This document shows, piece after piece, positions 984 through 16,705 of a stretch of 64,000 nucleotides of DNA (the stretch's first letter is position 1; every line of letters starts with the position of its first letter). The position numbers and the translations under genes were made by a program. The stretch covers positions 7,321,501 to 7,385,500 of the forward strand of contig NZ_CP108356.1 in assembly GCF_036237315.1 (NCBI RefSeq), read 5' to 3'. The DNA is from Streptomyces sp. NBC_01351. Lineage in GTDB: Bacteria > Actinomycetota > Actinomycetes > Streptomycetales > Streptomycetaceae. The notes beneath the pieces were generated by a model. The model was not told the DNA's origin and made no database searches. It saw only the letters and a program-made list of their open reading frames with translations.

Positions 984-2159
984 TTAGGCGGCGGGCTTGC
1001 CGGGCTGGTCATGGGTGGCGCAGTGGATCCCGCCGCCGCCCGCGGCGATCGTGTCGATCTTGATGGGCACGATGTCGCGCTTGGGGAAGTGCTCCTGAAG
1101 GATTCCGCGCGCACGGTCGTCGGCCTTGGCGTCACCGAAGCGGGGCATGAACACCGAGTCGTTGGCGACGTAGAAGTTGGCGTACGTCGACAGGAAGTCG
1201 TCGCCGCGGCCCGTGATCCTGTCCGGGTCGGGCTGCTGCAGGTCGATGATCTCCAGGCGCCGCCCCCGCGCGTCGGTCGCTTTGTCGAGGACGGATTTCG
1301 CCTGGTCGGCCGAGCGGGACCAGGAATCGGCGGGCATCCCGGGGAACGCCCGGTCCAGGAGGACCACACCGGGCGCCGTGAACCGCACGAGGCTGTCGAC
1401 GTGCGCGTCGGTGATGTCCTCGCCGCGCACGCCGGCGAGCCAGATCACCTTCTCGACGCCCAGGTTCTGCTTGAGCTCGGCTTCGATCTGGTCCCGGCTC
1501 TTGCCGCGGTTGCGGTTGTCGTTGACGATCGAGCTCTCCGTGATCAGGAGGGTGCCCTCGCCGTCCGTCTCGAAGGAACCCCCCTCGGCCACCAGCGGAG
1601 CCTGGACCCGCGGGATCTTGTACTTCTCCAGGAGGGCACGGCCGACCAGGGCGTCGTTCTTGTGCTCCTGCTTGTTCCCCCAGCCGTTGAAGTTGAAGTC
1701 GACACCGATCACCTTCCCGGCCTCTTCCACGAACACCGGCACGGTGTCCCGCGCCCACAGGTCGTCGACCTGTAGGGGGATGACCTCGACCTGGGAGCCG
1801 CACGCCTTCTGGGCCGCGGCCTGCTGGTCGGGCCTGGCCATCATGACGACGTACTCGTACTCCGCGATCGCCCGTGCCACCCGGGCGATGTCCTCCCGTA
1901 CGTACGGCAGGTCTTCCTCCCAGACGCCGGCCGCCAGGGCGGGCCAGGACATGAAGGTGCGCGTGTGGCTCTCCCACTCGGCGCCCAGCCTCCGGGCGCC
2001 GGCCGGCTTGGGGGACTGGCCGGTGGGGGTGGCGCTGGGGGAGGCGCCGGGCTGCCCGGACTCACCGGGACCGCAGGCCGAGGAGCCGAGGGCGAGCATG
2101 CCGAAGCCGGCGAAGAACGCGCGGAGCGTCGTACGGCGGGAGGGGGGAAGTTCGGACAC
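984..2159 (-). CDS. exported agmatine deiminase / peptidylarginine deiminase family protein (paralogue 1)
   Basis: 391 residues of the PAD_porph/agmatine deiminase family, which hydrolyses a guanidino group to a ureido group plus ammonia using a cysteine nucleophile. Visible family motifs are WARDTVPVF, EGGSFETDGEGT, ITDAHVDSL with the catalytic His, and GGGGIHCATHDQP with Cys380 as the expected nucleophile. The N-terminus SRRTTLRAF followed by a hydrophobic run and Cys29 is a Tat-type signal, possibly of a lipoprotein, although the residues before Cys29 (SSA) fit the lipobox poorly. The enzyme therefore probably acts outside the cytoplasm. The promoter overlaps the palindrome at 2342-2359. 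Whether it uses agmatine, arginine or peptidyl-arginine cannot be read from sequence. Paralogues lie at 8256 and 15439. Confidence 0.85.
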   Translation of the reverse strand: MSELPPSRRTTLRAFFAGFGMLALGSSACGPGESGQPGASPSATPTGQSPKPAGARRLGAEWESHTRTFMSWPALAAGVWEEDLPYVREDIARVARAIAEYEYVVMMARPDQQAAAQKACGSQVEVIPLQVDDLWARDTVPVFVEEAGKVIGVDFNFNGWGNKQEHKNDALVGRALLEKYKIPRVQAPLVAEGGSFETDGEGTLLITESSIVNDNRNRGKSRDQIEAELKQNLGVEKVIWLAGVRGEDITDAHVDSLVRFTAPGVVLLDRAFPGMPADSWSRSADQAKSVLDKATDARGRRLEIIDLQQPDPDRITGRGDDFLSTYANFYVANDSVFMPRFGDAKADDRARGILQEHFPKRDIVPIKIDTIAAGGGGIHCATHDQPGKPAA

Positions 2160-2331
2160 GGTGGACTCCGATCGTGAACTGGCGGGATGAAGCTATCCGG
2201 CGGCGAGGGGCATCCCGGGGACGCGTGGCACAGGGATCGCAGCCTGGGCCTGGTTGGAGCACAGGGCATCGGCTGCACCGTCTGTGGGGGCCGGGCCGGG
2301 TCCGTCAGGGCGGGTGGGGCGCCTTGTCGAC

Positions 2332-2360
2332 ACTCTCGCACTGACTGAAGTTTCAGTCAA
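2332..2360 (-). promoter_or_regulatory. TetR-type operator overlapping the promoter of deiminase 1
   Basis: TGACTGAA-GT-TTCAGTCA (2342-2359) is an 18-bp palindrome. Read on the minus strand, TTGACT (2360-2355) is a -35 box, followed after 17 bp by GAGAGT (2337-2332), an acceptable -10. Binding would cover the -35 and spacer, so repression is expected. The same palindrome recurs at 3046, 5461, 8132 and 16688. The likely ligands are the two paralogous TetR proteins at 2408-3001 and 4790-5368. Confidence 0.75.
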
Positions 2361-2407
2361 TTTGCTGCCCATGAGGCGAGGAGGGGGGTCAAGGCCGGGC
2401 GGGGGCC

Positions 2408-3001
2408 TCAGTTCTGATTCGACCGGCCCAGGTGCCCCAGTTCCACTTCGACGGCTTCCAGCATGAGCTCGCGGGCGTGGGACACCTGCAGCACGCCGCT
2501 GAGCCAGCGCATGCTGAGTCCTTCGAGCAGCGCGGTCAGGCGTTCGGCGGAGGCCGTGAGCGCGGGGGCGGGTGTCATCGGCTGCGCGCACGCCAGGAGG
2601 AAAGCGACCTCCTGGACCCAGCTCAGGCCGGCCTTGGCCAGGTCTTCCCGCAGCTCGGGCTCGAAGATCGCGCTGGCGCGCAGCTCGCCCCACGCCGTGC
2701 TGTTCTCGCGCACCGCCGGCATGTCCTGGAATTCGAGCAGGAGGGACTGCTCCAGCGTCTTGCGAGGGTCGGAAGGGGACGCGTCCTCGTCGTCGAGGCC
2801 GCCCGTGTACCGTTCCGCCCGGTCGTTGATGAACTCCAGGGTGCGACGGAGAATGCCGGCCCGGTCCTTGAAGTGGTAGTAGACGAGCGCCGTGGACACC
2901 CCGGCTTCGGCCGCGAGCTCCTCCACCCGCAGCCCGCGGACCCCGCGCCTGGCTATGAGCCGGGCGGCGGCTTCCAAGATTGCCGTTCTGCGGTCCGTCA
3001 C
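2408..3001 (-). CDS. TetR family regulator (paralogue A of the cluster)
   Basis: A 197-residue TetR repressor. The GTG at 3001 is chosen because AGGAGGGG lies just upstream. A longer reading to 3094 would place the operator inside the gene. The helix-turn-helix near residues 20-45 reads AGVSTALVYYHFKDR, and the C-terminal ligand-binding domain contains LTALLEGLSMRWLSG. It is strikingly similar along its whole length to the TetR at 4790-5368, with an almost identical recognition helix, so both should bind the same palindrome. The site at 3046-3063 is 45 bp upstream of its start, which implies autoregulation. The inducer is unknown. By context it may be a guanidino compound or its product. Confidence 0.9.
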   Translation of the reverse strand: MTDRRTAILEAAARLIARRGVRGLRVEELAAEAGVSTALVYYHFKDRAGILRRTLEFINDRAERYTGGLDDEDASPSDPRKTLEQSLLLEFQDMPAVRENSTAWGELRASAIFEPELREDLAKAGLSWVQEVAFLLACAQPMTPAPALTASAERLTALLEGLSMRWLSGVLQVSHARELMLEAVEVELGHLGRSNQN

Positions 3002-3044
3002 TGCCTGATCCCCTCCTGGCGGTCTCGGTGGACATCGTCTCACA

Positions 3045-3073
3045 TTGACTGAATCTTCAGTTAGCGGCACGAT
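3045..3073. promoter_or_regulatory. TetR-type operator in the divergent TetR A / kinase promoter region
   Basis: TGACTGAA-TC-TTCAGTTA (3046-3063) has one mismatch to a perfect palindrome. On the plus strand TTGACT (3045-3050), 17 bp and CACGAT (3068-3073) form a promoter-like pair pointing to the kinase gene. On the minus strand TAACTG, 18 bp and GACGAT point to TetR A. One bound dimer could control both directions. Confidence 0.65.
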
Positions 3074-3175: not shown

Positions 3176-4732
3176 ATGTCCGCTCAGCTTTCCGGTGTGC
3201 AACCCGCCCACAAGGCCCTGTCCGTCGACGACCCCCGAGAGATCGGCGGCTACCGCCTCCACGCCCGGCTCGGCTCGGGCGGTATGGGGGTGGTGTACCT
3301 GGCCCACACGCCGGGGGGCCGCCCGATCGCACTGAAGGCGGTGCGTGCGGATTTCGCCGGCGATCCCGAATTCCGCCGCCGTTTCGCGCAGGAAGTCGCC
3401 AGCGCCCGGCGCATCCACGGCCTGTTCACCGCCCAGGTGGTCGATTCGGGGGTGGACGCCCCCACTCCGTGGCTGGCCACCGCCTTCGTGCCCGGACCGT
3501 CCCTGCAGCAGGTGGTGCAGCGCCACGGTCCGCTGCCGACGCGTACGGTGCTGCTGCTAGTGGCGGGGATCGCCGAGGCGCTCCAGGCCATCCACCGGGC
3601 GGGGGTCGTCCACCGGGACCTCAAGCCCGCCAACGTCCTGATCGCCGAGGACGGCCCCCGCGTCATCGACTTCGGGATCTCGCGCGCCGCCGACGCCACC
3701 GCACTGACCGGTGTCGGGCTGCGGATCGGCACCGCCGCGTTCATGGCGCCGGAGCAGGCGATGGGCGTACAAGTCACCCCGGCGACCGACGTCTTCGCTC
3801 TCGGAGCGCTCGCGGCGTACGTGGCCGGGGGCGTGCCCCCGTTCGGAGCCGGAGCGGAGTCGGCCGCCCTGTACAAGGTGGTTCACGAGCAGCCCGACCT
3901 CTCCAAGGTGCCGCACGACCTGCGCGATCTGCTGTCGTGGTGCCTGTCGAAGCAGCCCGGTGACCGGCCGGCGCCGATCGAGCTGATCACGGCCGTACGC
4001 GCCCATCCCGCCGTGGGCCATCGCCTGGAGTTCACCGACGACTGGCTCCCCCACCAGGTCAGCAGCGAGATACCCGGGCACGTCGAAAGGCCCGCGGCCC
4101 CGACTCCCCACGACCAACTCACCCTCACGGCACCTGCGGCTCCATCTCCGCACGCCGCACCGGGTGTTCGGCCGGAACCCCCCTCCCGCCGAGCCCGTCG
4201 ACGTGGACGCCGACTGCCCGTCGTGGCCGTGGCGGCCGCCTCCGCGCTGGTGCTGGCGGGCGCCGCGGCCTACTACCTGGACGTGCCCGCCGAGAAGGCG
4301 ACGGGGGCCCCCGCCGCCCCGGGCGGCAACTCCGAGTCGCCCGCCCCGTCGGGCGCCGCCTTCACGGCCGGCTACGCGAACGTCGAGCTGACGTCCCCGG
4401 AACCGGCCTACGAATTCGACCTCAAGGCCGGAAAGGTGGTCCCGGCGGATACCGCCACGTGGTACCTGGCGCGCACCCGGACCGAGTTCGTCGCCCCCGA
4501 GGACAGCGACGCCTTCATCGCGGCCGGGGACGAGCTGAGCCCCGCCGAGTGCGTGCGGGGGGTCGAGACGCAACCGGTGGCCGCGATCGCGTTCGGCAGC
4601 CTGAGTGGCGATCGCCCCTTCTGCATCCGCAGCGCCGACGGCAAGGACCTCGCGATCGTGCGCCTGATCGAGGCCGGCCCGGGCGGTGGGTCCGTCACGG
4701 TGGAAATGAGCCACCACCGGAGCGCGGGGTGA
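3176..4732 (+). CDS. membrane-anchored serine/threonine protein kinase
   Basis: A 518-residue Hanks-type kinase. The glycine loop LGSGGMGVVYLA spans about residues 32-43, with ATP-binding Lys54. The catalytic loop HRDLKPAN has Asp148, DFG has Asp165, and the APE-like motif is APEQ near 191. All key residues are present, so it should be active. A proline-rich linker (about 300-345) and one membrane helix (about 347-368) lead to an outer domain of about 150 residues without PASTA or other repeats I can name. It is divergent from TetR A, with a cluster operator 113 bp upstream of its start. A short hairpin (4731-4737 with 4748-4754) follows the stop. Its role in the cluster, perhaps sensing or controlling transport, is inference. 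Confidence 0.9.
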   Translation: MSAQLSGVQPAHKALSVDDPREIGGYRLHARLGSGGMGVVYLAHTPGGRPIALKAVRADFAGDPEFRRRFAQEVASARRIHGLFTAQVVDSGVDAPTPWLATAFVPGPSLQQVVQRHGPLPTRTVLLLVAGIAEALQAIHRAGVVHRDLKPANVLIAEDGPRVIDFGISRAADATALTGVGLRIGTAAFMAPEQAMGVQVTPATDVFALGALAAYVAGGVPPFGAGAESAALYKVVHEQPDLSKVPHDLRDLLSWCLSKQPGDRPAPIELITAVRAHPAVGHRLEFTDDWLPHQVSSEIPGHVERPAAPTPHDQLTLTAPAAPSPHAAPGVRPEPPSRRARRRGRRLPVVAVAAASALVLAGAAAYYLDVPAEKATGAPAAPGGNSESPAPSGAAFTAGYANVELTSPEPAYEFDLKAGKVVPADTATWYLARTRTEFVAPEDSDAFIAAGDELSPAECVRGVETQPVAAIAFGSLSGDRPFCIRSADGKDLAIVRLIEAGPGGGSVTVEMSHHRSAG

Positions 4733-4789: not shown

Positions 4790-5368
4790 ATGGCCCGACG
4801 CAAATCCATCCTCGAAGCGGCCGCCCGGGTGATTGCCAGGAGCGGCGTCCGTGGCCTGCGCGTAGAGGAAGTGGCCGCCGAGGCGGGTGTGTCCACCTCG
4901 CTGCTCTACTACCACTTCAAGGACCGCACCGGGCTCCTGCGTGCGACGCTCGAGTTCATCAACGACCGGGCCGAGCGCTACACCACGACCCGGGACGAGG
5001 ACGCGGAACCGCTCAGCCCCCGCGAGGAACTCGCCGAGACCCTCCTCCTGGAGCTCCAGGACACCGCCGAGGTGAGGGAGAACAGTTCCGCCTGGGGCGA
5101 GCTGCGCGCGAGCGCCGTCTTCGACGAGGTGCTGCGGGAGGACCTGGCCCGGGCGACCCTGGTGTGGGTCCAGGAGGTCGCCGCCCTGCTCGGCCAGGTG
5201 GAGCCGACGGCCCCGGCCGCAGCCCTGGCCGCGGCCGGCGAGCGGCTCACCGCGCTCCTGGAGGGCCTGAGCATGCGCTGGCTCAGCGGCGGACTCCGGA
5301 TGACGCACGCGCGTGCGCTGATGGAAGGCGCGATCGACGCCGAACTGGCGCGGCTGCACCAGAAGTAG
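4790..5368 (+). CDS. TetR family regulator (paralogue B of the cluster)
   Basis: A 192-residue TetR repressor beginning MARRKSILEAAARVIARSGVRG, with HTH AGVSTSLLYYHFKDR. Most positions match the TetR at 2408-3001, including the blocks TLEFINDRAERYT, VRENS-AWGELRASA and LTALLEGLSMRWLSG, so the two arose by duplication. It starts 57 bp after the kinase stop and may be read with it. The next operator copy is 92 bp behind its stop, in front of the urease genes. Two regulators for one operator could give two inducers or heterodimers. This is inference. Confidence 0.9.
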   Translation: MARRKSILEAAARVIARSGVRGLRVEEVAAEAGVSTSLLYYHFKDRTGLLRATLEFINDRAERYTTTRDEDAEPLSPREELAETLLLELQDTAEVRENSSAWGELRASAVFDEVLREDLARATLVWVQEVAALLGQVEPTAPAAALAAAGERLTALLEGLSMRWLSGGLRMTHARALMEGAIDAELARLHQK

Positions 5369-5459: not shown

Positions 5460-5488
5460 TTGACTGATTTTTCAGTCAGTGCCAGAGT
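5460..5488 (+). promoter_or_regulatory. TetR-type operator overlapping the urease promoter
   Basis: TGACTGAT-TT-TTCAGTCA (5461-5478), one mismatch from a perfect palindrome. TTGACT (5460-5465) and CAGAGT (5483-5488), 17 bp apart, form a promoter reading into the urease genes, whose first start codon is at 5615. The leader of about 120 bp has no other signal that I can see. Confidence 0.7.
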
Positions 5489-5614: not shown

Positions 5615-6319
5615 ATGGCCCTGACCCCCACTGAGCGTGACCGACTACTGCTCTTCACCGCCGCCGAGCTCGCGCGCTCCCGTCATGCCCGAGGGCTTCG
5701 CCTGAACGTCCCGGAAGCGACCGCGCTCATCGCCGACACGGTCTGCGAGGCGGCCCGTGACGGCCTGCGCCTCGCCGAGGCCGTCGGCCGTGGCCGTACC
5801 GTGCTGGGGCCTGACGACGTGTTGCCCGGGGTCGCCGACGTGGTCACCGAGATCCAGGTCGAGGCCGTCTTCGATGACGGAACGCGGCTGGCCGTGGTCA
5901 GCGCCCCGTTTGGAGCCCTGCCCTGGGACCCGAGCGCCCCGGGTGCGGTCATACCGGCCTCGGAGACCGTGGAAGGGCCTCGCCCCGCAGCGACCCTCGC
6001 GGTGCGCAACACCGCCACGGTCCCGGTCAGCGTCACCTCCCACTTCCACTTCTTCGAGGCGAACCCCCGCCTCGATTTCGACCGCGCCGCCGCCTACGGG
6101 ATGCGTCTGGCCGTACCGGCGGGATCCTCCACGCGCTTCGAACCGGGCGAATCCGTGGAAGTCGAGCTGGTGCCGATCGGCGGTGCCCGCATCGCGATCG
6201 GTTTCGCGGGGCTGGTGGACGGGCCGCTGGACGGGCCCGGAGTGAAGGAGGAGGCCCTGCGCCGGGCCGCCGCCTGCGGCTACCTGGGCGCGGAGCACTC
6301 ACGAGGAGCACAGTCATGA
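5615..6319 (+). CDS. ureAB: fused urease gamma-beta subunit
   Basis: A 234-residue protein. Residues 1-100 match the gamma subunit (LTPTERDRLLLFTAAELAR, ATALIADTVCEAARDG, VLPGV). Residues about 108-225 match the beta subunit (IPASETVEG, VRNTATVPVSVTSHFHFFEANPRLDFDR, AYGMRLAVPAG, ALRRA). Gamma-beta fusion is known in actinobacterial ureases. The two domains pack against the alpha subunit and are not catalytic themselves. The ATG at 5615 has GGAGAAGG upstream and its stop overlaps the next start (ATGA), so translation is coupled. No ureD, ureE, ureF or ureG gene lies in the window, so nickel loading, if needed, must come from genes elsewhere. Confidence 0.9.
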   Translation: MALTPTERDRLLLFTAAELARSRHARGLRLNVPEATALIADTVCEAARDGLRLAEAVGRGRTVLGPDDVLPGVADVVTEIQVEAVFDDGTRLAVVSAPFGALPWDPSAPGAVIPASETVEGPRPAATLAVRNTATVPVSVTSHFHFFEANPRLDFDRAAAYGMRLAVPAGSSTRFEPGESVEVELVPIGGARIAIGFAGLVDGPLDGPGVKEEALRRAAACGYLGAEHSRGAQS

Positions 6320-8064
6320 GCAAGCAGACCAGGCACAGCGACCACTGTGCGCCGGGCAGCCGGCACATCGACCCCCACGAGTACGCCACCGTGCACGGTC
6401 CTCGCGCGGGAGATCGCGTCCGCCTCGGCGACTCGGGTCTCGTCGTCCGCGTGGAGTCCGATTCGCAACGGCCCGGTGACGAGTTCCTGGCCGGTTTCGG
6501 CAAGACGGCCCGTGACGGCCTGCACCTGAAGGCCGCCGCCGTCCGCGAGACCTGCGACGTCGTGATCAGCAACGTCCTCGTGATCGATGCCGTCCTCGGC
6601 ATCCGCAAGGTCTCCATCGGCATCCGCGAGGGCCGGATCCACGCGATCGGCCGGGCCGGAAATCCCGACACCCTCGACGGGGTCGACGTCGTGGTCGGCA
6701 CCGGTACGACCATCGTCTCCGGTGAAGGCCTCATCGCCACCGCCGGCGCCGTCGACACCCACGTTCACCTGCTCTCCCCGCGCATCATGGAGGCCTCCCT
6801 CGCCTCCGGCGTCACCACGATCATCGGCCAGGAGATCGGGCCGAGCTGGGGCGTCGGCGTCAACTCCCCGTGGGCGCTGAAGCACGGGTTCAACGCCTTC
6901 GACGCGTGGCCCGTCAACATCGGCTTCCTGGCTCGGGGTTCCTCCTCCCATGAGGCGCCCCTGGTCGAGGCCCTCGCCGAGGGCGGCGCCTGCGGATTCA
7001 AGGTGCACGAGGACCTCGGCGCCCACACCCGGGCCCTGGACACCGCCCTGCGCGTGGCCGAGGAGTACGACGTCCAGGTCGCCCTGCACAGCGACGGCCT
7101 GAACGAGTGCCTCTCCGTCGAGGACACCCTGCGGGTGCTGGAGGGCCGCACGATCCACGCCTTCCACATCGAGGGCTGCGGCGGCGGGCACGTCCCGAAC
7201 GTGCTGAAGATGGCGGGCGTGCCGAACGTCATCGGCTCCTCCACCAACCCGACCCTGCCCTTCGGCCGGGATGCCATCGACGAGCACTACGGGATGATCG
7301 TCTCGGTCCATGCTCTCAAGCCGGACCTTCCCGGCGACGCGGCCATGGCCCGTGACCGGATCCGCGCGGGCACCATGGGCGCCGAGGGTGTGCTGCACGA
7401 CCTGGGTGCGATCGGCATCACCTCCTCCGATGCCCAGGGCATGGGCCGGGCGGGCGAGACCATCCGCCGGACCTTCGCGATGGCCGCGAAGATGAAGGGC
7501 GAGCTGGGGCCGCTGCCCGGTGACGGGGAGGGCGACGACAACGCCCGCGTCCTGCGCTACGTGGCCAAGCTGACCATCAACCCGGCCATCGCCCACGGCC
7601 TGGCCCACGAGATCGGCTCGATCGAGGTCGGCAAACTCGCCGACATCGTGCTGTGGCGGCCGCCGTTCTTCGGCGCCAAGCCGCAGATGGTCCTCAAGTC
7701 CGGCTTCCCCGCGTACGGGGTCACGGGGGACCCGAACGCGGCCACCGACAGCTGTGAACCGCTGGTCCTCGGCCCTCTCTTCGGAGGCCACGGAGCCGCG
7801 CCGGCGGACCTTTCGGTGGCCTTCGTCAGCCAGGCCGCGGCCGAAGCCGGGTCCTCGGGCAGGCCCTACGACGGGATGACGACCCGCCGCCGCAGGGTAG
7901 CCGTGCGCGGTACGCGGGGGATCGGCCCCGCGGACATGGTCAACAACGCCAGGCTCGGTGACGTACAGGTCGACGCGCGCAGCGGCCTGGTCACCCTCGA
8001 CGGAGCACCCCTGCGCTCGGAGCCGGCGCAGGAGGTTCCCCTGAGTCGCCTCTACTTCCTGTGA
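6316..8064 (+). CDS. ureC: urease alpha subunit, divergent type
   Basis: A 582-residue amidohydrolase homologous to urease alpha along its whole length, which forms the dinickel site that splits urea to ammonia and carbamate. The metal ligands are all present: His149 and His151 (DTHVH), carbamylated Lys229 (GFKVHED), His258 (ALHSD), His284 (HAFHIEG) and Asp372 (SSDAQ). The flap His is kept (His332 in SVHAL), but the neighbouring flap Cys of standard ureases is Val331. The usual glycine-rich GGGTGPA-type loop after GVTT is replaced by GQEIGPSWGVGVN. It may thus be a urease with altered substrate pocket or inhibitor response. It overlaps ureAB by 4 bp and no accessory genes follow. Confidence 0.88.
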   Translation: MSKQTRHSDHCAPGSRHIDPHEYATVHGPRAGDRVRLGDSGLVVRVESDSQRPGDEFLAGFGKTARDGLHLKAAAVRETCDVVISNVLVIDAVLGIRKVSIGIREGRIHAIGRAGNPDTLDGVDVVVGTGTTIVSGEGLIATAGAVDTHVHLLSPRIMEASLASGVTTIIGQEIGPSWGVGVNSPWALKHGFNAFDAWPVNIGFLARGSSSHEAPLVEALAEGGACGFKVHEDLGAHTRALDTALRVAEEYDVQVALHSDGLNECLSVEDTLRVLEGRTIHAFHIEGCGGGHVPNVLKMAGVPNVIGSSTNPTLPFGRDAIDEHYGMIVSVHALKPDLPGDAAMARDRIRAGTMGAEGVLHDLGAIGITSSDAQGMGRAGETIRRTFAMAAKMKGELGPLPGDGEGDDNARVLRYVAKLTINPAIAHGLAHEIGSIEVGKLADIVLWRPPFFGAKPQMVLKSGFPAYGVTGDPNAATDSCEPLVLGPLFGGHGAAPADLSVAFVSQAAAEAGSSGRPYDGMTTRRRRVAVRGTRGIGPADMVNNARLGDVQVDARSGLVTLDGAPLRSEPAQEVPLSRLYFL

Positions 8065-8130: not shown

Positions 8131-8159
8131 TTGACTGAATTTTCAGTCGAGAGGAAGAT
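8131..8159 (+). promoter_or_regulatory. TetR-type operator overlapping the deiminase 2 promoter
   Basis: TGACTGAA-TT-TTCAGTCG (8132-8149), with a single mismatch in the last base. TTGACT (8131-8136), 17 bp and GAAGAT (8154-8159) make a promoter-like pair. The coding start of the deiminase is at 8256, leaving a leader of about 90 nt. Confidence 0.72.
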
Positions 8160-9269: not shown

Positions 9270-9286
9270 CCGGAGACCGACCGCTC

Positions 9287-9348: not shown

Positions 9349-11007
9349 ATGTCCACACCCCCACCCCGGACCACCAGACGTGCCCGTGCCCCGCGCGGTC
9401 GGCTCGCCGCCGCCACCGCGTTCCTGGCGTCCTCCGCCCTGCTGGCGGCCTGCTCGGGCCCGCCCAAGAACGCGGGCCCCGTCACCGAGGTCACCCTGTC
9501 GAAGAGCACGCCGCAGGCCGTCGGCGAGATCGACTCCTTCACCTGGGCGGTCTACGCCGAGCCGCCCACGCTCGACTACACGGTGGCGTTCGACTACCCG
9601 CAGAACACGATCCTCTCCAACGTCTGCGAAAGCCTCATGCGCTGGACGCCGGGGCTCACCATGGAACCCGGCCTGGCGCAGAAGGCGTCCAACCCGGACC
9701 CCACCACCTGGGTCTACGACCTCCGCCCCGGCGTGCGCTTCCACGACGGCGGCGTGATGAGCGCCGACGACGTCGTCTTCAGCCTGGGCCGGCAGATGGA
9801 TCCCGACAACGCGGCGGCCTGGGCCCAGAACTTCCAGAACGTCGACACCGTGACCAAGACCGGCCCGCTCCAGGTCACCGTCAAGCTGAAGAAGCCCGAC
9901 TCCCAGTTCCCCCAGTACATGGCGACCGCCGCCGGAGTGGTGGCGTCCAAGGCCGGAGTCGAGGCGGCCGGCGCGGACTACGGCACCACCGGCGGCCTCG
10001 CCTGCACCGGCCCCTTCAAGCTCGGCACCTGGACCAAGGGCCAGTCGATCGAGCTGGAGCGGTTCGACGACTACTGGGGGACCAAGGCCAAGTCCAAGAA
10101 GGCCGTCTTCCGGGTCCTGACCGACCCCTCCGCCCGCACCAACGCCATGCTCAGCGGGGAGGCCGACGGCGGATACCTCATCCCCACCGAGAGCTACGGC
10201 AGGCTGCGCGAGAGCGGCGTGGGCACCCTGTACTTCGGCGAGGGCCTGAGCACGGTCAACGTCAACATCACCAACATGCAGGGCCCGCTCGGCGACGTCC
10301 GCGTGCGCCGTGCACTGTCCCTGGCCCTGGACCGCGCCGGATTCGTCAAGGCCGGACTCGGCGGAGCCGGAACCGTCACGCACTCCCTCACCACCCGCGC
10401 CGCCTGGGCGTCGGCCCCGGAGAGCACCCTGAAGTCCGCACTCGACGGCCTGCCCCACCCCGACCGGAACATCGAGCAGGCCAAGGCGCTCATCAAGGAG
10501 GCCGGGGCCACCGGCAAGACCCTGACCGTCGCCACCAGCGCCATCGGCCAGGACGTCTCCCTCCTCGCCACAGCGGTGCAGGCGGCCGGTACCGAGATCG
10601 GCCTGGACATCCAGCTCAAGACCATCGCTCCGAACGCGTTCACCGCGCTGTTCACCGATCCCGCGGCGCGCGAGGGCATCGACATGTTCCCGCTCACCTA
10701 CTACGACTCGATCACTGACCCGCTGGACCTGCTGACGAACTTCAAGACCGGCGCCTACATGAACTTCGCCGGCTACAGCGACAAGCAGTACGACGATCTG
10801 GTCGACCAGGCCGTCGGCGTCTACGAGCCGGGGCCGCGCCTGGAGATCGAGGCCAAGCTCCAGAAGCACGCCGCCGAGCAGCTGCTGTGGATCCCGGTCG
10901 CCGAGTGGCCCACCGCGGTCTTCCTCAACAAGAGGGTCACCGGCGCCCCGACCACCATCTCGTACATGTACTACCCGTGGGCCGCGGACGTGGGTGCGGC
11001 GCAGTGA
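9349..11007 (+). CDS. ABC importer substrate-binding lipoprotein, family 5 (oligopeptide/dipeptide type)
   Basis: 552 residues from ATG 9349, with GGAAAGAGAG as ribosome site. The N-terminus is basic (TTRRARAPRGR), then hydrophobic, ending in the lipobox LLAAC, so it is a membrane-attached binding protein. The SBP family 5 signature is clear: MEPGLAQKASNPDPTTWVYDLRPGVRFHDG, then SADDVVFSL, PDNRN-type turns and a C-terminal domain with ALDRAGFV. Members bind peptides, opines, nickel chelates or other cationic compounds. The ligand here is unknown, though the neighbouring deiminases suggest a guanidino compound or arginine-rich peptide. Its stop overlaps the next start (GTGA). Confidence 0.92.
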   Translation: MSTPPPRTTRRARAPRGRLAAATAFLASSALLAACSGPPKNAGPVTEVTLSKSTPQAVGEIDSFTWAVYAEPPTLDYTVAFDYPQNTILSNVCESLMRWTPGLTMEPGLAQKASNPDPTTWVYDLRPGVRFHDGGVMSADDVVFSLGRQMDPDNAAAWAQNFQNVDTVTKTGPLQVTVKLKKPDSQFPQYMATAAGVVASKAGVEAAGADYGTTGGLACTGPFKLGTWTKGQSIELERFDDYWGTKAKSKKAVFRVLTDPSARTNAMLSGEADGGYLIPTESYGRLRESGVGTLYFGEGLSTVNVNITNMQGPLGDVRVRRALSLALDRAGFVKAGLGGAGTVTHSLTTRAAWASAPESTLKSALDGLPHPDRNIEQAKALIKEAGATGKTLTVATSAIGQDVSLLATAVQAAGTEIGLDIQLKTIAPNAFTALFTDPAAREGIDMFPLTYYDSITDPLDLLTNFKTGAYMNFAGYSDKQYDDLVDQAVGVYEPGPRLEIEAKLQKHAAEQLLWIPVAEWPTAVFLNKRVTGAPTTISYMYYPWAADVGAAQ

Positions 11008-11963
11008 GCTTCCTGAGATTCGCGGCGCGACGGCTGGGGGAGATGGCCGCCACCCTGCTCGCCGCCTCGTTCGTGGTCTTCGGCGCGATGTACCTGGCAC
11101 CGGGCAGCCCGGCGAGCTTCCTGCTCGCCGGCCGCTCGGCCTCCCCGGAGGCGCTGGCCGCGATCAACGCCCATTACCACCTGGACGACCCGTTCCTCGT
11201 ACGGTACTTCCGCTGGCTCGGCGACGTGGTCCAGGGAGACTTCGGGCGGTCCATCACCTACCGCACCGACGTCTCCCGGCTCCTGGCCGACCGCCTGCCC
11301 AGCACCCTGATGCTCGTCGCCATGGCCCTGATCGTGGTCGTGATCGTCGGCCTGGTGCTCGGCTGGATCAGCTCGGTCCGAGGCGGAGCCACCGACTCCG
11401 CCATCCTCGTCACCACCACGTTCGCCGTCGGCACGCCCTCCTTCGTCGCGGCCGTGCTGCTCCAGGGCCTGTTCGCCGTCCGGCTGGGCTGGTTTCCGAG
11501 CAGCGGCGCGGGCGACGGCTTCGGCGACATGCTCTGGCACCTGACCCTGCCGGCCATCGCGCTCGCGCTCTACCTGATCGGCATGCTGGCCCGGGTCACC
11601 CGCTCCGCCATGCTCGAAGCCCTCGACGGCGAGCACGTCACCGTGGCACGCAGCCGGGGCGTGCCCGAGCGCCTGGTCATCCGCCGCCACGTGTTCCGCA
11701 ACGCGCTGGGCACCGTACTCACCACGGGCGGTCTGATCGTCTCCACCCTGCTCGTCTGCACGATCCTCGTGGAAACCGCCTTCAGCATCGGCGGCATCGG
11801 CCAGCTCCTGGAGCTGTCGACGACGACCAAGGACTTCCCGACCGTCCAGGCCATCTCCCTGATCATCGTCGCCCTGTTCATGATCGTGAACCTCATCGTC
11901 GACCTGCTGCTGCCGTTGGTCGACCCGCGGATCACCCTCGGATCGAGGAGGTCCTCCGCATGA
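11004..11963 (+). CDS. ABC importer permease, DppB type
   Basis: 319 residues from the GTG at 11004 that overlaps the binding-protein stop by 4 bp. It has about six membrane helices. The N-terminal RFAARRLGEMAATLLAASFVVFG and the sequence PGSPAS are typical of DppB/OppB. The cytoplasmic EAA-type loop for ATPase contact is seen near EHVTVARSRGVPERLVIRRHVFRNAL. It forms the membrane channel together with the next gene product. The stop overlaps the next ATG. Confidence 0.92.
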   Translation: MSFLRFAARRLGEMAATLLAASFVVFGAMYLAPGSPASFLLAGRSASPEALAAINAHYHLDDPFLVRYFRWLGDVVQGDFGRSITYRTDVSRLLADRLPSTLMLVAMALIVVVIVGLVLGWISSVRGGATDSAILVTTTFAVGTPSFVAAVLLQGLFAVRLGWFPSSGAGDGFGDMLWHLTLPAIALALYLIGMLARVTRSAMLEALDGEHVTVARSRGVPERLVIRRHVFRNALGTVLTTGGLIVSTLLVCTILVETAFSIGGIGQLLELSTTTKDFPTVQAISLIIVALFMIVNLIVDLLLPLVDPRITLGSRRSSA

Positions 11964-12814
11964 CCGCCGTCCTGACCCGCCGGCCCGGCCTCTCCCGGAT
12001 CCGGGCGGCCCGGTCGCCGCTCTACCTGGTCTGCCTGGGCTTCGTCGCCCTCGTGGTGGTCTCCGCGCTGCTCGCACCCTGGGTGGTGCCGTACGACCCC
12101 AACGTCATCGACCTGGGCAACGCGCTCGCCGGGCCCTCCGCCGCCCATCCGCTCGGTGTGGACGCGGCCGGCCGAGACACCCTCTCCCGCCTGCTGCTCG
12201 GAGCCCGCACCTCCCTGCTGGGCCCCCTCGGCGTGGTCGCCTTCTCCACCGTCGCCGGCGTCGCCGTCGGCATGGCCGCGGCCTGGAAGGGCGGCTGGCT
12301 CGACTCCGTCCTCTCCCGCAGCACGGAACTGGTCTTCGCCTTCCCCGGCATGCTCCTCGCCATCCTGATCATTTCCGTCTACGGCGAAGGGCTGATCGCA
12401 CCGGTCGTCGCACTCGCGATCGCCTACCTCCCCTACGTCAGCCGCCTCACCCGCTCGCTGGTCCTGGCCGAACGCGAACGCCCCTACGTCAGCGCCTACC
12501 AGGTGCAGGGACACTCCTCGCTGCAGATCTGCCTGCGCCACGTCCTGCCCAACATCGCCCCCGTCGTCCTCGCCCAGTCCACCATCAACTTCGGCTACGC
12601 CCTCATGGACCTCGCGGGCCTGTCCTTCCTCGGACTCGGCGTGCCCGCGCTCACCCCCGACTGGGGGCGGATGGTCTTCGACGGCCAGACCGCGATCCAG
12701 CACGGCTACCCGCTGTCCGCGATCCTGCCCTGCGCCGTCATCGTCCTGACCGTGGTCGCCTTCAACGTGGTCGGAGAACGATGGGCCGACCGGGTCGCCA
12801 GGAGGGCCAGATGA
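11960..12814 (+). CDS. ABC importer permease, DppC type
   Basis: 284 residues from the ATG at 11960 within ATGA. Features of the DppC/OppC group are the N-terminal helix, HPLGVDAAGRDTLSRLLLGARTSL, and the coupling loop RERPYVSAYQVQGHSSLQICLRHVLPNIAP, followed by LSFLGLGVPALTPDWGRM. It completes the channel heterodimer. An ATGA overlap with the first ATPase gene continues the tightly coupled operon. Confidence 0.93.
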   Translation: MTAVLTRRPGLSRIRAARSPLYLVCLGFVALVVVSALLAPWVVPYDPNVIDLGNALAGPSAAHPLGVDAAGRDTLSRLLLGARTSLLGPLGVVAFSTVAGVAVGMAAAWKGGWLDSVLSRSTELVFAFPGMLLAILIISVYGEGLIAPVVALAIAYLPYVSRLTRSLVLAERERPYVSAYQVQGHSSLQICLRHVLPNIAPVVLAQSTINFGYALMDLAGLSFLGLGVPALTPDWGRMVFDGQTAIQHGYPLSAILPCAVIVLTVVAFNVVGERWADRVARRAR

Positions 12815-13806
12815 AACCGCTGCAACCGACGCACACACTCGACATCCAAGGGCTGCGGATCACCCTGCCCGGTACCGCCCGCCCCGTCCTCGACGGGGTC
12901 GACCTCACCGTCGACACCGGCGAGACCGTCGCCCTCGTCGGCGAATCCGGCTCCGGGAAGACCCTCACCTCCCGCAGCGCACTGCGCCTGCTGCCGCCCG
13001 GGGCCACGGTCGAGGGCACCGTCCGGGTGTGCGGCCAGGACGTCCTGACCATGGACCCCGGCCGGCTGAGCGCCCTGCGCACGGGCACGGTGGCCATGAT
13101 CTTCCAGGACCCCCGCGCCGCCATCAACCCGCTGCGCCGCATCGGCGACTTCCTCACCGAGTCGGTCCGGCTCACGAGGAAGATGACCTTGGCGGACGCG
13201 ACCGTCCGGGCCGCCGAACTCCTCGGCGAGGTCGGCCTCGACGCCTCGGCGCTGGACAAGTACCCGAGCCAGGTCTCGGGCGGCATGCTGCAGCGCATCA
13301 TGATCGCGGCCGCCCTCATGGGCGACCCGGCCCTGCTCCTGGCCGACGAACCCACCACGGCGCTGGACGTCACCACCCAGGCCGAGGTCATCGCGCTCCT
13401 GGCCAGGCTGCGCGAACGCTTCGGCACCGGCCTGCTCTTCGTCACGCACGACCTCGACCTCGCCGCGGCCATCAGCGACCGGGTCTACGTCATGTACGCG
13501 GGACGCATCGTCGAGAGCGGTCCCGCGGGGGCGCTCTTCGCGCACCCCCGCCACCCCTACACGGCAGCCCTGCTCGCCTCCACACCCCGACTGGAAGCCC
13601 CGAGGGGCAGGCTCGCCGCCATCGATGGACAGCCCCCGGACCTGCGCCGGGAACTGAGCGGCTGCCCCTTCGCCTCCCGATGTCCCCTCGCCACCGAAGT
13701 GTGCGACGCGCAGGCCCCCCAGCCAGTGCCCGCACCCGACGTACCCGGACACCACGCGGCGTGCCACCACACCGACCGGCTCGAAGGGAGCGCCGTCGAT
13801 GCCTGA
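12811..13806 (+). CDS. ABC importer ATPase, DppD type
   Basis: 331 residues from the ATG at 12811, preceded by AGGAGGG. Walker A is GESGSGKT, the signature is VSGGMLQR and Walker B is LLLADEPTTALDV, with the switch His in VTHDLDLAAA. The C-terminal tail CPFASRCPLATEVC is the cysteine-containing oligopeptide/dipeptide ATPase extension. It energises import together with the next protein. Its end overlaps the next gene by 8 bp. Confidence 0.93.
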   Translation: MKPLQPTHTLDIQGLRITLPGTARPVLDGVDLTVDTGETVALVGESGSGKTLTSRSALRLLPPGATVEGTVRVCGQDVLTMDPGRLSALRTGTVAMIFQDPRAAINPLRRIGDFLTESVRLTRKMTLADATVRAAELLGEVGLDASALDKYPSQVSGGMLQRIMIAAALMGDPALLLADEPTTALDVTTQAEVIALLARLRERFGTGLLFVTHDLDLAAAISDRVYVMYAGRIVESGPAGALFAHPRHPYTAALLASTPRLEAPRGRLAAIDGQPPDLRRELSGCPFASRCPLATEVCDAQAPQPVPAPDVPGHHAACHHTDRLEGSAVDA

Positions 13807-14599
13807 CAACGTGCTGGAAGTCGTGGGTCTGCGCCGCGCCTACGGAAACGTACGGGCCGTGGACGACGTGTCGTTCACCCTGGGAGAGGGCGGCTCCCTC
13901 GGCATCGTCGGCGAATCCGGATCCGGCAAGACCACCACGGCCCGGATCGTCGTGGGCCTGGAGCGGGTCGATGCCGGCGAGGTCCTCGTACACGGCCGCG
14001 ACCGCACGGGACGCAGCCGAGGCCGCGCGGGGCGTCTGGCCCGCGCCCGCGAAGTCCAGATGGTCTTCCAGGACCCCTACCTCTCCCTGGACCCGCGCAC
14101 CAGCGTAGAGGCGGTGCTGCGCGAAACGCTGAGGCTGCACTTTCCCGACGGGGACCACGAGCGGCGCATCCGCGAACTGCTCGACCAGGTCGGACTGGGA
14201 ACCCGCGCCGCCGACGCCCTGCCCCGCCAACTCTCCGGCGGACAGCGCCAGCGCGTCGCCATCGCCCGCGCGCTGGCGGTGGAACCGGCCGTCCTCGTCC
14301 TGGACGAAGCCGTCGCCGCCCTCGACGTGTCGGTGCAGGCCCAGATCCTCAACCTGCTGGCGGACATCCGGGAACAGACCGCGATCGGCTACCTGTTCAT
14401 CACGCACGACCTCGGCGTGGTCCGCTGCGTCACCGACGACGTGATCGTCATGCGGCACGGCCGGATCGTCGAGGCCGGACCCACCGCCTCGGTGCTCGCG
14501 GCACCGGAACATCCCTACACCCGGCTGCTCCTGGAGTCCGTGCCCCGGCCCGGCTGGGACCCCGACCGGATCGCGGCGGCCCGCCGGGCCCTGGAGTAG
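13799..14599 (+). CDS. ABC importer ATPase, DppF type
   Basis: 266 residues. Walker A is GESGSGKTT, the signature is LSGGQRQRVAIARAL and Walker B is VLVLDEAVAALDVS, where the usual Pro-Thr/Ser after DE is Ala-Val. The switch region is FITHDLGVVRC. The C-terminus lacks the long cysteine-rich extension of the partner ATPase. It is the last gene of the five-gene importer operon and is convergent with the TetR gene at 14619, with only 19 bp between them. Confidence 0.92.
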   Translation: MPDNVLEVVGLRRAYGNVRAVDDVSFTLGEGGSLGIVGESGSGKTTTARIVVGLERVDAGEVLVHGRDRTGRSRGRAGRLARAREVQMVFQDPYLSLDPRTSVEAVLRETLRLHFPDGDHERRIRELLDQVGLGTRAADALPRQLSGGQRQRVAIARALAVEPAVLVLDEAVAALDVSVQAQILNLLADIREQTAIGYLFITHDLGVVRCVTDDVIVMRHGRIVEAGPTASVLAAPEHPYTRLLLESVPRPGWDPDRIAAARRALE

Positions 14600-14618
14600 C
14601 GTGCGTCGCCGGCCCGGC

Positions 14619-15254
14619 TCAGGCCCCCGCGGCGAGCGTGAGGATCAGGGTCCGGAAGACGGACTCGGCGTCGACCTCGGCGTCGAGGGACTGGATGGCG
14701 GCCAGCCCGTCGACAGCGGCGGCCACCGCCTCGCCGAGCGGCCGCGGATCGATGTCGCCACCGCGTTCGTCGGCGAGCACCTGGAAGAGGTGGACGAAGC
14801 TGCCGCGCCAACGCCGGTACTCCGCCTCCAGACTCACGCGTATCCGTTCGTCGTTCAACGCGTGCCAGTGCAGCGCGGAGTGAAGGTGCGACAGGTCCGC
14901 GCTCTCACCCTGGGTCAGCAGCAGAACGACGCGCTCCGCGCGCTCCGAGAAGGCGCCCGGGGCCTCCACCGCCTCTTCCATGGGGGAGATCCACTCCGGC
15001 CGGATGTCCTCGATCACCGCCAGGATGAGGTCCGTACGGTCCGCGAAGTGGTAGTGGCACATGCCGTGCGACACCCCGCACAGGGCAGCGACGTTGCGCG
15101 TCGTGAAACGCGCGCTCATCTCGCCGCTCAGGAGCGTCCGCGCGGCCGCGATCAGCCGCGCACGCGTCTGTTCTCCCTTGGCCGAGACGCGGGTCCGTCC
15201 CGCCCGGGCGGGGACGGGCACGGGCGTCTGAGGTTCCTTCGGAGGAGCTGCCAT
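14619..15254 (-). CDS. TetR family regulator (third, different type)
   Basis: 211 residues with HTH CGVSHGMCHYHFADRTDL near 60-80 and a basic N-terminal tail. The C-terminal domain (HLHSALHWHALNDERIRVSLEAEYRRWR) resembles TetR_C_6/BetI-like members. It is not a close relative of the two paralogous TetR proteins at 2408 and 4790. It is divergent from deiminase 3, with the palindrome TGACCGAG-CG-CTCGGTCA between them, which is therefore its likely operator. Its ligand may be the same pathway compound or a downstream product. Confidence 0.88.
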   Translation of the reverse strand: MAAPPKEPQTPVPVPARAGRTRVSAKGEQTRARLIAAARTLLSGEMSARFTTRNVAALCGVSHGMCHYHFADRTDLILAVIEDIRPEWISPMEEAVEAPGAFSERAERVVLLLTQGESADLSHLHSALHWHALNDERIRVSLEAEYRRWRGSFVHLFQVLADERGGDIDPRPLGEAVAAAVDGLAAIQSLDAEVDAESVFRTLILTLAAGA

Positions 15255-15361
15255 GGCGCAACTCTAGCCAGTGGCCGACCGCCACCTGGGAGTTTCCACC
15301 GACCACGGAAGATCGCTGTCGCTCACGCGCCGACCGACCGGGAGAAGCGGCGCCAAGAATA

Positions 15362-15390
15362 TTGACCGAGCGCTCGGTCAGTAATAGCTT
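15362..15390 (+). promoter_or_regulatory. second-type TetR operator overlapping the deiminase 3 promoter
   Basis: TGACCGAG-CG-CTCGGTCA (15363-15380) is a perfect 18-bp palindrome. TTGACC (15362-15367), 17 bp and TAGCTT (15385-15390) form a good promoter for the gene starting at 15439. It has the same length and half-site frame as the TGACTGAA sites but differs at two positions in each arm, which fits the different TetR next to it. Confidence 0.75.
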
Positions 15391-15438
15391 TCCGGCCAAC
15401 CACGGTGAATCCGTGGGGAGTTGACACAGGAGGCGTAT

Positions 15439-16602
15439 ATGAACGATCACGTAGCAGACAGGCCGCCGGGAAGCGGGGCCCTCGGCCGACGCGGGTTCCT
15501 GACGGCCACGGCCATCGCCGCGGCCGGCGCCGCACTGGGGGCGGCCGAAGGCCCGGCGCGGGCGGCGTCGCGCATCAACCGGTCCTCGTCGGCGGGGGCG
15601 TTCACGGTCCCCGGCGAGGAGGTGCGGCACACCCGGACCTGGATGGCCTGGCCGGACAGCACCACGATCTGGCGGGGCAAGCTCGGAGGGGTCCAGGCGA
15701 ACATCGCGCTGATCGCGAAGACGATCGCCAAGTACGAGCCGGTCGTCATGTGCGCCAACCCCGCGAGCGCGTCCAAGGCGCGTTCGATGTGCGGGCCGAC
15801 GGTCACGGTGATCACGTCCATCGCGGTCGACGACTGCTGGATGCGCGACACCGGGCCCGTCTTCCGTACGAACGGGGCCGGCGGCCTGGACGCGGTCGGC
15901 CTGAACTTCAACGGCTGGGGCAACAAGCAGACGCACTACAGGGACGAGCTCGTCGCCGAGAAGATCGCCGCCCACGTCGGGGTGCCGATCACGTACGCCG
16001 ACCTGGTGGCGGAGGGCGGGGCCATCGAACAGGACGGCGCCGGGACCCTGATGGCGACCCGGAGCAGCATCATCAACAACAACCGCAACCCCGGGATGTC
16101 GCAGTCGCAGATCGAGGCCGCGATGCGCACCGCGTACGGCGCCTCCAAGGTCATCTGGTTCGACGGCGTGTACGGCCAGGACATCACCGACGACCACGTG
16201 GACGCGACGTCCCGATTCCTCGCGCCGGGGCGGGCGTTGGTCCAGATGCCGATGGCGTCGGACAACGACGCCTACGCGAAGGACGCGCGCCAGCAGTACC
16301 AGATCCTGTCCACGTCCACGAGCGCCGGTGGCGCGCCGATGGCGGTCACCAAGCTCCAGGGCCCCGACTACTACAAGATCCGCTCCAGCAGCCCGGACTT
16401 CGTCGCCGCCTACGTCAACTACTACGTGTGCAACGGTGCGGTGATCTCGTCGCACTTCGGCGACACGTCCGCTGACGCCGCGGCCAAGGCCACCCTCGTC
16501 CGGCTCTTCCCCGGCCGGACCGTCGTACAGCTCAACACCGACTACCTCGGCGCCGGGGGCGGCGGCATCCACTGCGTCACCCAGCAGCAGCCGGCCCCGT
16601 AG
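15439..16602 (+). CDS. Tat-exported agmatine deiminase family protein (paralogue 3)
   Basis: 387 residues from the ATG at 15439, chosen because CAGGAGG lies 6 bp upstream. The signal LGRRGFLTATAIAAAGAAL is a clear twin-arginine type ending near ARA-A, so the protein folds inside and is exported. Family motifs are CWMRDTGPVF, EGGAIEQDGAGT, ITDDHVDATSRF and GGGGIHCVTQQQP with nucleophile Cys379. It resembles deiminase 1 (984-2159) in export and in length. The reaction class is guanidino hydrolysis to ureido plus ammonia. The physiological substrate is unknown. Confidence 0.88.
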   Translation: MNDHVADRPPGSGALGRRGFLTATAIAAAGAALGAAEGPARAASRINRSSSAGAFTVPGEEVRHTRTWMAWPDSTTIWRGKLGGVQANIALIAKTIAKYEPVVMCANPASASKARSMCGPTVTVITSIAVDDCWMRDTGPVFRTNGAGGLDAVGLNFNGWGNKQTHYRDELVAEKIAAHVGVPITYADLVAEGGAIEQDGAGTLMATRSSIINNNRNPGMSQSQIEAAMRTAYGASKVIWFDGVYGQDITDDHVDATSRFLAPGRALVQMPMASDNDAYAKDARQQYQILSTSTSAGGAPMAVTKLQGPDYYKIRSSSPDFVAAYVNYYVCNGAVISSHFGDTSADAAAKATLVRLFPGRTVVQLNTDYLGAGGGGIHCVTQQQPAP

Positions 16603-16637
16603 CGGGCCCGGGATCCACGCACGCCATCTGCTCGCCG

Positions 16638-16665
16638 CCCTCCGGATATCCGGATATCCGGAGGG
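16638..16665. terminator. 28-bp perfect palindrome, probable terminator of deiminase 3
   Basis: The arms 16638-16651 and 16652-16665 are exact inverted copies, built from overlapping CCGGATAT units. As RNA it gives a 12-bp stem with a CCGG loop, 36 nt after the deiminase stop. The lack of any central spacer also allows a DNA-binding or recombination role. Confidence 0.5.
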
Positions 16666-16686
16666 TGTTCATCCATATCCATTCTA

Positions 16687-16705
16687 TTGACTGAATTTTC
16701 AGTCC
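16687..16705. promoter_or_regulatory. orphan copy of the cluster TetR operator
   Basis: TGACTGAA-TT-TTCAGTCC (16688-16705) keeps seven of eight bases in the right arm, and TTGACT is present at 16687-16692. At 17 bp downstream the sequence is CGGTCG, which is not a -10. No intact gene starts nearby on either strand. It may be a relic of a lost promoter or an accessory binding site. It stands about 55 bp from the broken end of the molybdoenzyme remnant. Confidence 0.6.

Follow-up and report, generated by a model that had tools for sequence, protein, structure and literature searches.

Gene organization of the locus

A 64,000-bp stretch of the genome of Streptomyces sp. NBC_01351 (contig NZ_CP108356.1, positions 7,321,501 to 7,385,500 of the forward strand; hereafter the window, whose coordinates are used below) was analyzed for a cluster of deiminase, urease and importer genes spanning positions 984 to 16602. 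Gene calls, Pfam and NCBIfam identified three deiminases of family PF04371 (E-values from 9e-97 to 5e-116), a fused ureAB gene with ureC, a five-gene ATP-binding cassette (ABC) importer, a Ser/Thr protein kinase and three TetR genes, confirming the inventory that an earlier sequence-only reading of this DNA had proposed. Genome-wide there were five PF04371 deiminases, three in the window and one each at 0.40 Mb and 2.54 Mb.

The deiminase Dei1 (984..2159, reverse strand; Pfam) displayed a twin-arginine and lipobox-like N-terminus, read by eye. TetR1 (2408..3001, reverse strand; TetR_N and TetR_C_6) probably starts at a GTG near 3001, because an operator falls inside the longer open reading frame (ORF). 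The forward strand encodes the kinase (3176..4732; Pkinase, 4.6e-38), an optional member, followed by TetR2 (4790..5368; Pfam), a TetR1 paralogue with a similar recognition region. UreAB (5615..6319) is a fused urease gamma and beta subunit (Pfam; 320.9 bits with the NCBIfam bifunctional gamma/beta model, cut-off 243), and UreC (6316..8064; Pfam, NCBIfam) is a urease alpha subunit of the ure(AB)C subtype with the nickel ligands kept and the pocket altered. Dei2 (8256..9269, forward; Pfam, NCBIfam), predicted to be cytoplasmic by an N-terminus test, precedes the importer genes on the same strand. These encode a family-5 solute-binding lipoprotein (SBP, 9349..11007; SBP_bac_5, 1.9e-72, with NCBIfam and PDB comparison), an OppB-like permease (11004..11963; a family-B permease in NCBIfam), an OppC-like permease (11960..12814) and the OppD-like (12811..13806) and OppF-like (13799..14599) ATPases, the last three assigned by Pfam and NCBIfam, and the five genes overlap one another. 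The cluster ends with TetR3 (14619..15254, reverse; Pfam), which has a different recognition region, and Dei3 (15439..16602, forward; Pfam), a deiminase with a predicted twin-arginine translocation (Tat)-type signal peptide.

Operators, promoters and regulators

The palindrome TTGACTGAAnnTTCAGTCAA, with up to three mismatches, was detected at five places in the 8.9-Mb genome, all in the same 14.4 kb (2341, 3045, 5460, 8131 and 16687). The pattern GACTGAnnnTTCAGT returned the same five places genome-wide, all within window positions 2341-16706. A backwards control pattern gave one match on each strand of the genome, and none of 100 shuffles of the window contained the operator. Four of the five operators stand before Dei1 (2341..2360, reverse strand; TTGACTGAAACTTCAGTCAG, the -10 place reading GAGAGT), between TetR1 and the kinase (3045..3064, forward; TTGACT-N17-CACGAT toward the kinase, read from the sequence), before ureAB-ureC (5460..5479, forward; TTGACT-N17-CAGAGT) and before the Dei2-importer operon (8131..8150, forward; TTGACT-N17-GAAGAT). 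Downstream of the fifth (16687..16706, forward) no family gene lies within 450 bp, and neither side shows a phased -10 element; this site may be a relic at a rearrangement border. It runs within a molybdopterin-oxidoreductase-like ORF (16577-17413), apparently truncated at the border of the cluster, in which only positions 3-50 of a 169-position profile are matched.

Between TetR3 and Dei3 lies a palindrome of a second type, TGACCGAGCGCTCGGTCA (15363..15380, forward strand), which differs in sequence from TTGACTGAAnnTTCAGTCAA. It overlaps a promoter of the same geometry before Dei3 (TTGACC, 17 bp, TAGCTT, read from the sequence). The sequence-only reading had linked the whole region by shared palindromic operators, which held for TTGACTGAAnnTTCAGTCAA at its five places and failed for TetR3 and Dei3. 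The idea that one operator serves all three TetR genes was rejected.

In the window and 62 further loci (63 sequences), 139 of 144 sites were located within 450 bp of the start of a family gene, compared with a random fraction of 0.206; the regulators, the kinase, AguB-like genes (described below) and two NCS1 genes were included as family genes in this count. Sixty of these loci contained 137 sites versus five matches to the reversed consensus, and none of the 60 was without a site; 40 of these loci had been picked for holding an operator (93 sites) and 20 by the SBP alone (44 sites).

With the sites oriented toward the enzyme genes, the element TTGACT-N17-nAnnnT was found at one offset in 100 of 121 site-gene pairs and in 0-14 pairs at each of the other 40 offsets tested. 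No p-value is given because the sequences are related and not independent. By gene, the phased -10 element was present in UreAB 13/13, Dei3 17/18, Dei1 46/54, Dei2 24/31 and AguB 0/5. The operator thus overlaps the promoter, with the -35 box inside the operator, and this arrangement fits repression by exclusion of the polymerase.

Among the 76 TetR1/TetR2-type proteins found, the common recognition region AEAGVSTALIYYHFKDR followed Leu-Ala exactly in 23, and close variants were present in most of the others listed. The recognition region of TetR3, CGVSHGMCHYHF, was recovered in nine of 23 proteins, where the pattern caught it, and TGACCGAGCGCTCGGTCA or a nearly identical palindrome was located upstream of 14 of the 23 TetR3 genes. 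We infer from these sequences that TetR1 and TetR2 pair with the TTGACTGAAnnTTCAGTCAA operator and TetR3 with TGACCGAGCGCTCGGTCA.

Distribution and conservation of the cluster

The exact core operator pattern occurred in 49 of 199 genomes of the genus. Forty stretches around sites were fetched from 27 relatives, together with 3-kb loci around exact core sites. The operator stood beside family genes or an AguB-like gene in 29 genus genomes, including that of strain NBC_01351. Thirty of the 3-kb loci were inspected, of which 13 encoded a family protein, one (L028) an AguB-like gene and 16 neither, an A/T-only core being absent from all 16. The survey covered the sites other than those of G023, G086, G140 and G149 and seven further sites in otherwise surveyed genomes (G004, G015, G038, G085, G098, G162 and G173), none with an A/T-only core.

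SBP orthologues were identified in 19 of the 199 genus genomes (57-100% identity; 51% or less in the others). A second binding protein, about 50% identical to the SBP, is encoded 0.36 Mb away in the own genome (contig positions 7686817-7688460), and paralogues at 46-51% occur in many relatives. A family-linked operator was present in all 19 of these genomes and in 10 of the 180 without the orthologue (Fisher p = 1.2e-19, relatedness ignored). In a family sample of 200 genomes the SBP was found at 68% identity or more in 37 genomes from six further genera, and operators were present in all 20 clusters fetched from these. In a class sample of 197 genomes at E<=1e-180, it was found only in the own genome and one more of the same genus, and the unit therefore looks confined to the Streptomycetaceae. 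Co-conservation in other actinomycete genomes, set beforehand as one test of the sequence-only reading, is thus borne out, and the cluster is a real, co-conserved regulon.

Membership was uneven. Dei2 and OppB were encoded in all 38 fetched loci with an SBP, UreC in 23, TetR3 in 22 and the kinase in 16, although several of the loci counted for UreC end early at contig or fetch borders. In three of the 19 cluster genomes (G015, G162, G188) canonical urease alpha was the only kind present, an enzyme of the ure(AB)C type being absent at E<=1e-120; the urease is not an obligatory partner. The counts therefore indicate that Dei2 and the importer form the core, with urease and kinase as accessories. 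Each of the 19 cluster genomes had 4-9 PF04371 copies, genomes elsewhere mostly 0-1; the operator genomes G071, G085 and G167 had four and others up to three.

Few other genes recurred. Only three products came up in at least four loci among ORFs with Streptomyces-like codon use: a short-chain dehydrogenase-like protein (4 loci), a DUF4436 protein and the ORF antisense to it. In the window the DUF4436 membrane protein (97..957, reverse strand; Pfam, 1.4e-74) is encoded 26 bp downstream of Dei1. Homologues were present in eight of 61 sequences including the window, and in six of these eight the homologue follows a Dei1-type gene in the same orientation; the gene may belong to the regulon and be co-transcribed with Dei1. 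This neighbor, the operator-promoter overlap and the AguB-like enzyme that shares the operator in related genomes were all missing from the sequence-only reading.

Standalone units were also observed. Three of them (L070, L077, L081) have their whole neighborhood in common, with a major facilitator superfamily (MFS) transporter and a subtilisin-like protein. In two genomes the regulon operator stands in front of genes for an NCS1-family permease and then a Dei3-like deiminase (L076:6950 and L091:12698); the permease is 27-28% identical to that of the core urease locus described below. A shrunken cluster in G071 (L061), with only partial matches to UreAB, OppF, TetR3 and Dei3, looks like a decaying copy.

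The deiminases

Dei1, Dei2 and Dei3 of the window all carry the motifs WxRD, HxD and GGGxHC, which hold the pentein catalytic Cys, His and Asp and the guanidine-binding Asp. Among 157 deiminases, failures of the three motifs numbered 1, 1 and 2 for Dei1 (74 proteins), 0, 1 and 10 for Dei3 (42) and 0, 4 (mis-hits) and 0 for Dei2 (40); these residue counts rest on motif patterns that miss some proteins. By NCBIfam score, Dei2 came closest to agmatine deiminase. In the PDB, where Dei1 and Dei2 were compared, both were nearest to plant agmatine deiminase (221 and 270 bits, respectively).

According to a passage of PMC6447857, the Medicago agmatine deiminase (MtAIH) uses Cys366, His224 and Asp226 in catalysis, and Asp220 binds the agmatine amine. 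In the motif alignment, the position of Asp220 was occupied by Glu in 35 of 40 Dei2, the other five being four pattern mis-hits and one Ile, and by Ile in 73 of 74 Dei1 and 39 of 42 Dei3. Agmatine itself is doubtful as a substrate of the exported enzymes, nearly all of which carry this Ile. The gate loop was 24-26 residues long in 52 of 74 Dei1 and 22-23 in six of 40 Dei2, compared with 40 in the Arabidopsis enzyme; the measure gave absurd values (160-173) for 10 of the 40 Dei2 and none for all 42 Dei3.

The N-termini were consistent with the proposed division into exported Dei1 and Dei3 and cytoplasmic Dei2. A twin-arginine followed by a hydrophobic stretch was present in 53 of 61 readable Dei1 N-termini (no anchor in 13 of 74). 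The Dei1 of the window is among the eight that the automatic export test did not flag, seven of which show a lipobox-like Cys. An export-type N-terminus was found in 13 of 14 readable Dei3 (28 of 42 had no anchor), and no signal in 38 of 39 Dei2, the exception being the 0.40-Mb paralogue. The exported and the cytoplasmic deiminases thus probably differ in substrate.

The urease of the ure(AB)C subtype

Urease alpha is encoded by three good gene copies in the genome: the canonical gene lies at 7.12 Mb, a core copy of ure(AB)C at 2.54 Mb and the third copy in the window. The window UreC is 95% identical to a Streptomyces protein, about 90% to the core copy and about 48% to the canonical copy of its own genome. 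It scored 642.6 bits with TIGR01792 (cut-off 680) and passed the broader NF009686 (747 versus 354). No accessory gene was found among the genes called at the window urease locus.

Residues are numbered here as in the Klebsiella enzyme. The nickel ligands, the catalytic His320 and Arg336 were kept in all 41 (AB)C-type copies (20 cluster and 21 core). The same 41 copies displayed an altered pocket, with C319 replaced by Val or Ala, A363G and a loop of 12 residues after GP, four shorter than usual. Cys, Ala and a 16-residue loop were found in 20 of 21 copies sampled as canonical. The odd copy (G161, L153) represents a third type of fused urease, 45% identical to the window UreC, with Val, Gly and a short loop. 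It lies about 2 kb from genes for dimethylargininase and ornithine aminotransferase (L177:5545-7871, the same locus as L153), with an amidohydrolase also near, in this one genome only. Dimethylargininase is a guanidine-cleaving pentein that would yield citrulline, and this neighborhood, a single case, agrees with a urease-type enzyme that is supplied with ureido compounds.

In the core loci (L157-L176), UreAB-UreC were followed by a deiminase in 20 of 20, with an NCS1 permease in 17 and the core TetR visible in 16. None of them contained the GACTGA operator, the best site having five or more mismatches in 20 of 20; the palindrome TTAGAG-N5-CTCTAA was present in 12 of 20. The link of a urease-type enzyme to deiminases, together with the changed pocket, suggests that ure(AB)C may act on substituted ureas. 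A stronger form of this idea, possible though not probable, is that ure(AB)C would not be a urease at all; it would be a nickel hydrolase of N-substituted ureas that completes guanidino catabolism by splitting the ureido product of the neighboring deiminase. It would thereby match AguB in role but have the urease fold, in the widespread core locus as well as in the regulon.

The AguB-like enzyme

Three operator sites without a deiminase neighbor (L055, L085, L088) precede a nitrilase-fold protein resembling AguB. Orthologues at 88% identity or more were present in six of the 29 operator genomes, in five of them with the operator directly upstream. In G054 the gene order was TetR1, two operators, Dei2, AguB, SBP and OppB to OppF. 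This AguB link is the best clue to the chemistry and points to a conversion of guanidino to ureido compound to amine, as in aguBA of Pseudomonas. Mutual exclusion of AguB and the cluster UreAB-C, which would have indicated that one replaces the other, was not found: AguB was present in five of 14 cluster genomes with UreAB-C and in one of five without, G039 and G042 being counted from partial genes at contig ends.

Proposed function and alternative explanations

Taken together, the gene content and its regulation suggest that the cluster is probably a regulon under TetR repression through which nitrogen, and perhaps carbon, is obtained from guanidino compounds. In the following scheme we infer which TetR binds, the inducer, the substrates, the direction of transport and the substrate of UreAB-C. 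TetR1 and TetR2 would bind TTGACTGAAnnTTCAGTCAA and block the promoters whose -35 box lies inside the operator. A guanidino compound or its ureido product would act as inducer, so that the Dei1, ureAB-C and Dei2-importer promoters would open together, with Dei3 under a parallel TetR3 switch. Exported Dei1 and Dei3 would convert external guanidino compounds to ureido compounds and ammonia, the ABC importer would bring in the guanidino or ureido compound, and Dei2 would deiminate inside the cell. The ureido product would finally be split into amine, CO2 and NH3, by the AguB-like amidase in some species and presumably by UreAB-C here. A nitrogen-releasing route such as the sequence-only reading had sketched is thus supported, while the pathway itself stays conjectural.

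Several observations weigh against this interpretation. All three deiminases fall below the NCBIfam cut-off for agmatine deiminase (TIGR03380, 381.8 bits; Dei2 350.2, Dei1 260, Dei3 253.6). Two AguB-like proteins were scanned with NCBIfam and matched N-carbamoylputrescine amidase best, at 236 and 244 bits against a cut-off of 410, and the five AguB promoters lack the phased -10 element. AguB relatives at 61-65% identity (G036, G048) have no operator site. At E<=1e-60 an AguB-like gene is absent from the own genome, so that the ureido step presumably rests on UreAB-C; in G015, G162 and G188 both AguB and ure(AB)C are missing at the thresholds used. A putrescine-catabolic gene was not seen among the recurring neighbors listed. 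The genomes are related, and the counts are therefore not independent.

An alternative is that the deiminases turn guanidine or a simple alkylguanidine into urea or an alkylurea, with ureAB-C as an ordinary urease finishing the route. The conserved nickel ligands and catalytic His and Arg of UreC in all 41 copies, the position of ure(AB)C beside a deiminase in the core loci and many clusters, and the Ile where the agmatine amine would sit in the exported deiminases are consistent with it, and in a passage of a moonmilk survey ure(AB)C is counted among functional urease clusters (PMC5489568). We nevertheless regard this route as unlikely. The genome already has a canonical urease gene, the same 41 copies have the altered pocket with the shorter loop, and the family of the AguB-like enzyme, which shares the operator, takes its name from carbamoyl-amines and not from urea. 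A family-5 importer would also be unusual for so small a compound.

Similarly doubtful is a peptide route, by which Dei1 and Dei3 would be peptidyl-arginine deiminases and the importer would take citrulline- or arginine-containing peptides. Such a route would suit the family-5 binding protein with its oligo_HPY ATPases, and the short gate loop of Dei1 may open the active site. The sequence-only reading had likewise called the importer peptide-type; it reached no curated peptide cut-off of NCBIfam, nor any for nickel. Against the agmatine deiminase scores of Dei1 and Dei2 in the PDB, the chains of the Porphyromonas peptidylarginine deiminase (PPAD) gave these two proteins only 30-47 bits (Dei3 was outside the comparison). 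No peptidase was seen among the families recurring in at least four loci, the subtilisin-like protein being found in the three loci with a common neighborhood.

Much less probable is that the exported deiminases disarm guanidino antibiotics of competitors, the rest of the cluster scavenging the fragments. Export, the high number of deiminase copies and the standalone operator-deiminase units elsewhere in the genomes would agree with such a role, whereas the importer, the urease and the AguB-like enzyme under the same operator favor nutrition, and no resistance gene was seen among the recurring neighbors listed. The possibility of a NikABCDE-type nickel importer serving the urease, with the deiminases as unrelated neighbors, was suggested by the five-gene layout and by the best NCBIfam match of the SBP, a nickel-binding model. 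It was rejected as highly improbable on NCBIfam scores and synteny: the SBP reached 122.8 bits of the required 600 and all five importer proteins, permeases and ATPases included, were below the nickel cut-offs listed. Moreover, Dei2 accompanies the SBP in all 38 fetched loci and UreC in only 23 (some loci being cut by contig or fetch ends), and three cluster genomes show no ure(AB)C. The SBP of G012, in a locus outside the fetched set, lies about 3 Mb from Dei2, which was also counted as evidence against. Finally, a chance neighborhood of unrelated genes sharing palindromes, for which nothing spoke beyond the loose clusters of large genomes, is contradicted by the co-conserved genes, the operators and the promoter phase and has next to no probability.

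Comparison with known systems

The regulon is genuine and represents a variant of TetR-controlled guanidino catabolism for which no description was found in the open-access literature searched, most subscription papers lying outside that coverage. Passages of two genome surveys (PMC5489568, PMC2492869) count the second, accessory-less urease of many Streptomyces as a urease. With operator, promoter geometry and members sharply defined, the regulon offers a role for this enzyme, and should ure(AB)C indeed cleave substituted ureas, the extent of ureolysis in soil actinomycetes would be overstated by counting urease genes. The regulon further suggests a part for exported deiminases in nutrient capture, a use not found for this family in the literature searched.

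Canonical urease (ureABC with accessory genes) and ure(AB)C have the subunits, nickel ligands, His320 and Arg336 in common, whereas ure(AB)C differs in the fused gamma/beta subunit, the absence of a called accessory gene at the locus, C319V/A, A363G and the shortened loop. The plant and enterococcal agmatine deiminases likewise have the pentein catalytic residues in common with the enzymes of the cluster, and Dei2 keeps an acid near the amine; the gate loop is shorter where measured, and Dei1 and Dei3 nearly always carry Ile in place of the amine-contacting Asp220.

At 2.54 Mb the own genome encodes an NCS1 permease, ureAB, ureC, a deiminase and a TetR near leuB/ilvE-like genes. We take this locus to be probably that of S. 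coelicolor SCO5525-SCO5527, on the basis of gene order and a passage of the ArgR paper. That passage places SCO5527 and SCO6414 among the homologues of the arginine decarboxylase pathway and describes ureABC (SCO5525-5526) as not arginine-responsive (PMC3293853). A passage of PMC4991794 uses SCO5526 for an nrd gene, probably a misprint, and was not used. This type of core locus resembles the regulon in its urease and aguA-like genes, including the closely similar UreC, whereas it has another TetR and no GACTGA operator, the TTAGAG-N5-CTCTAA palindrome being present in 12 of the 20 core loci.

The nearest known parallel is aguBA/AguR of Pseudomonas aeruginosa, in which a deiminase and an N-carbamoylputrescine-type amidase are controlled by a TetR site overlapping the promoter. 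A passage of PMC4287709 describes the Pseudomonas TetR repressor AguR as bound between the -35 and -10 elements of aguBA. A deiminase and a carbamoyl-amine hydrolase under one operator are likewise found in the operon of G054, where the operator is followed by Dei2, AguB and the importer, and in five other genomes by virtue of the shared operator, the own genome lacking AguB at the threshold given above. The likeness to AguR is one of description, and the enzymes here score below the agmatine deiminase and AguB cut-offs. In contrast to aguBA, the regulon comprises several units, with 4-9 deiminases per cluster genome including exported types, a dedicated ABC importer, a urease-type enzyme and two or three TetR paralogues.

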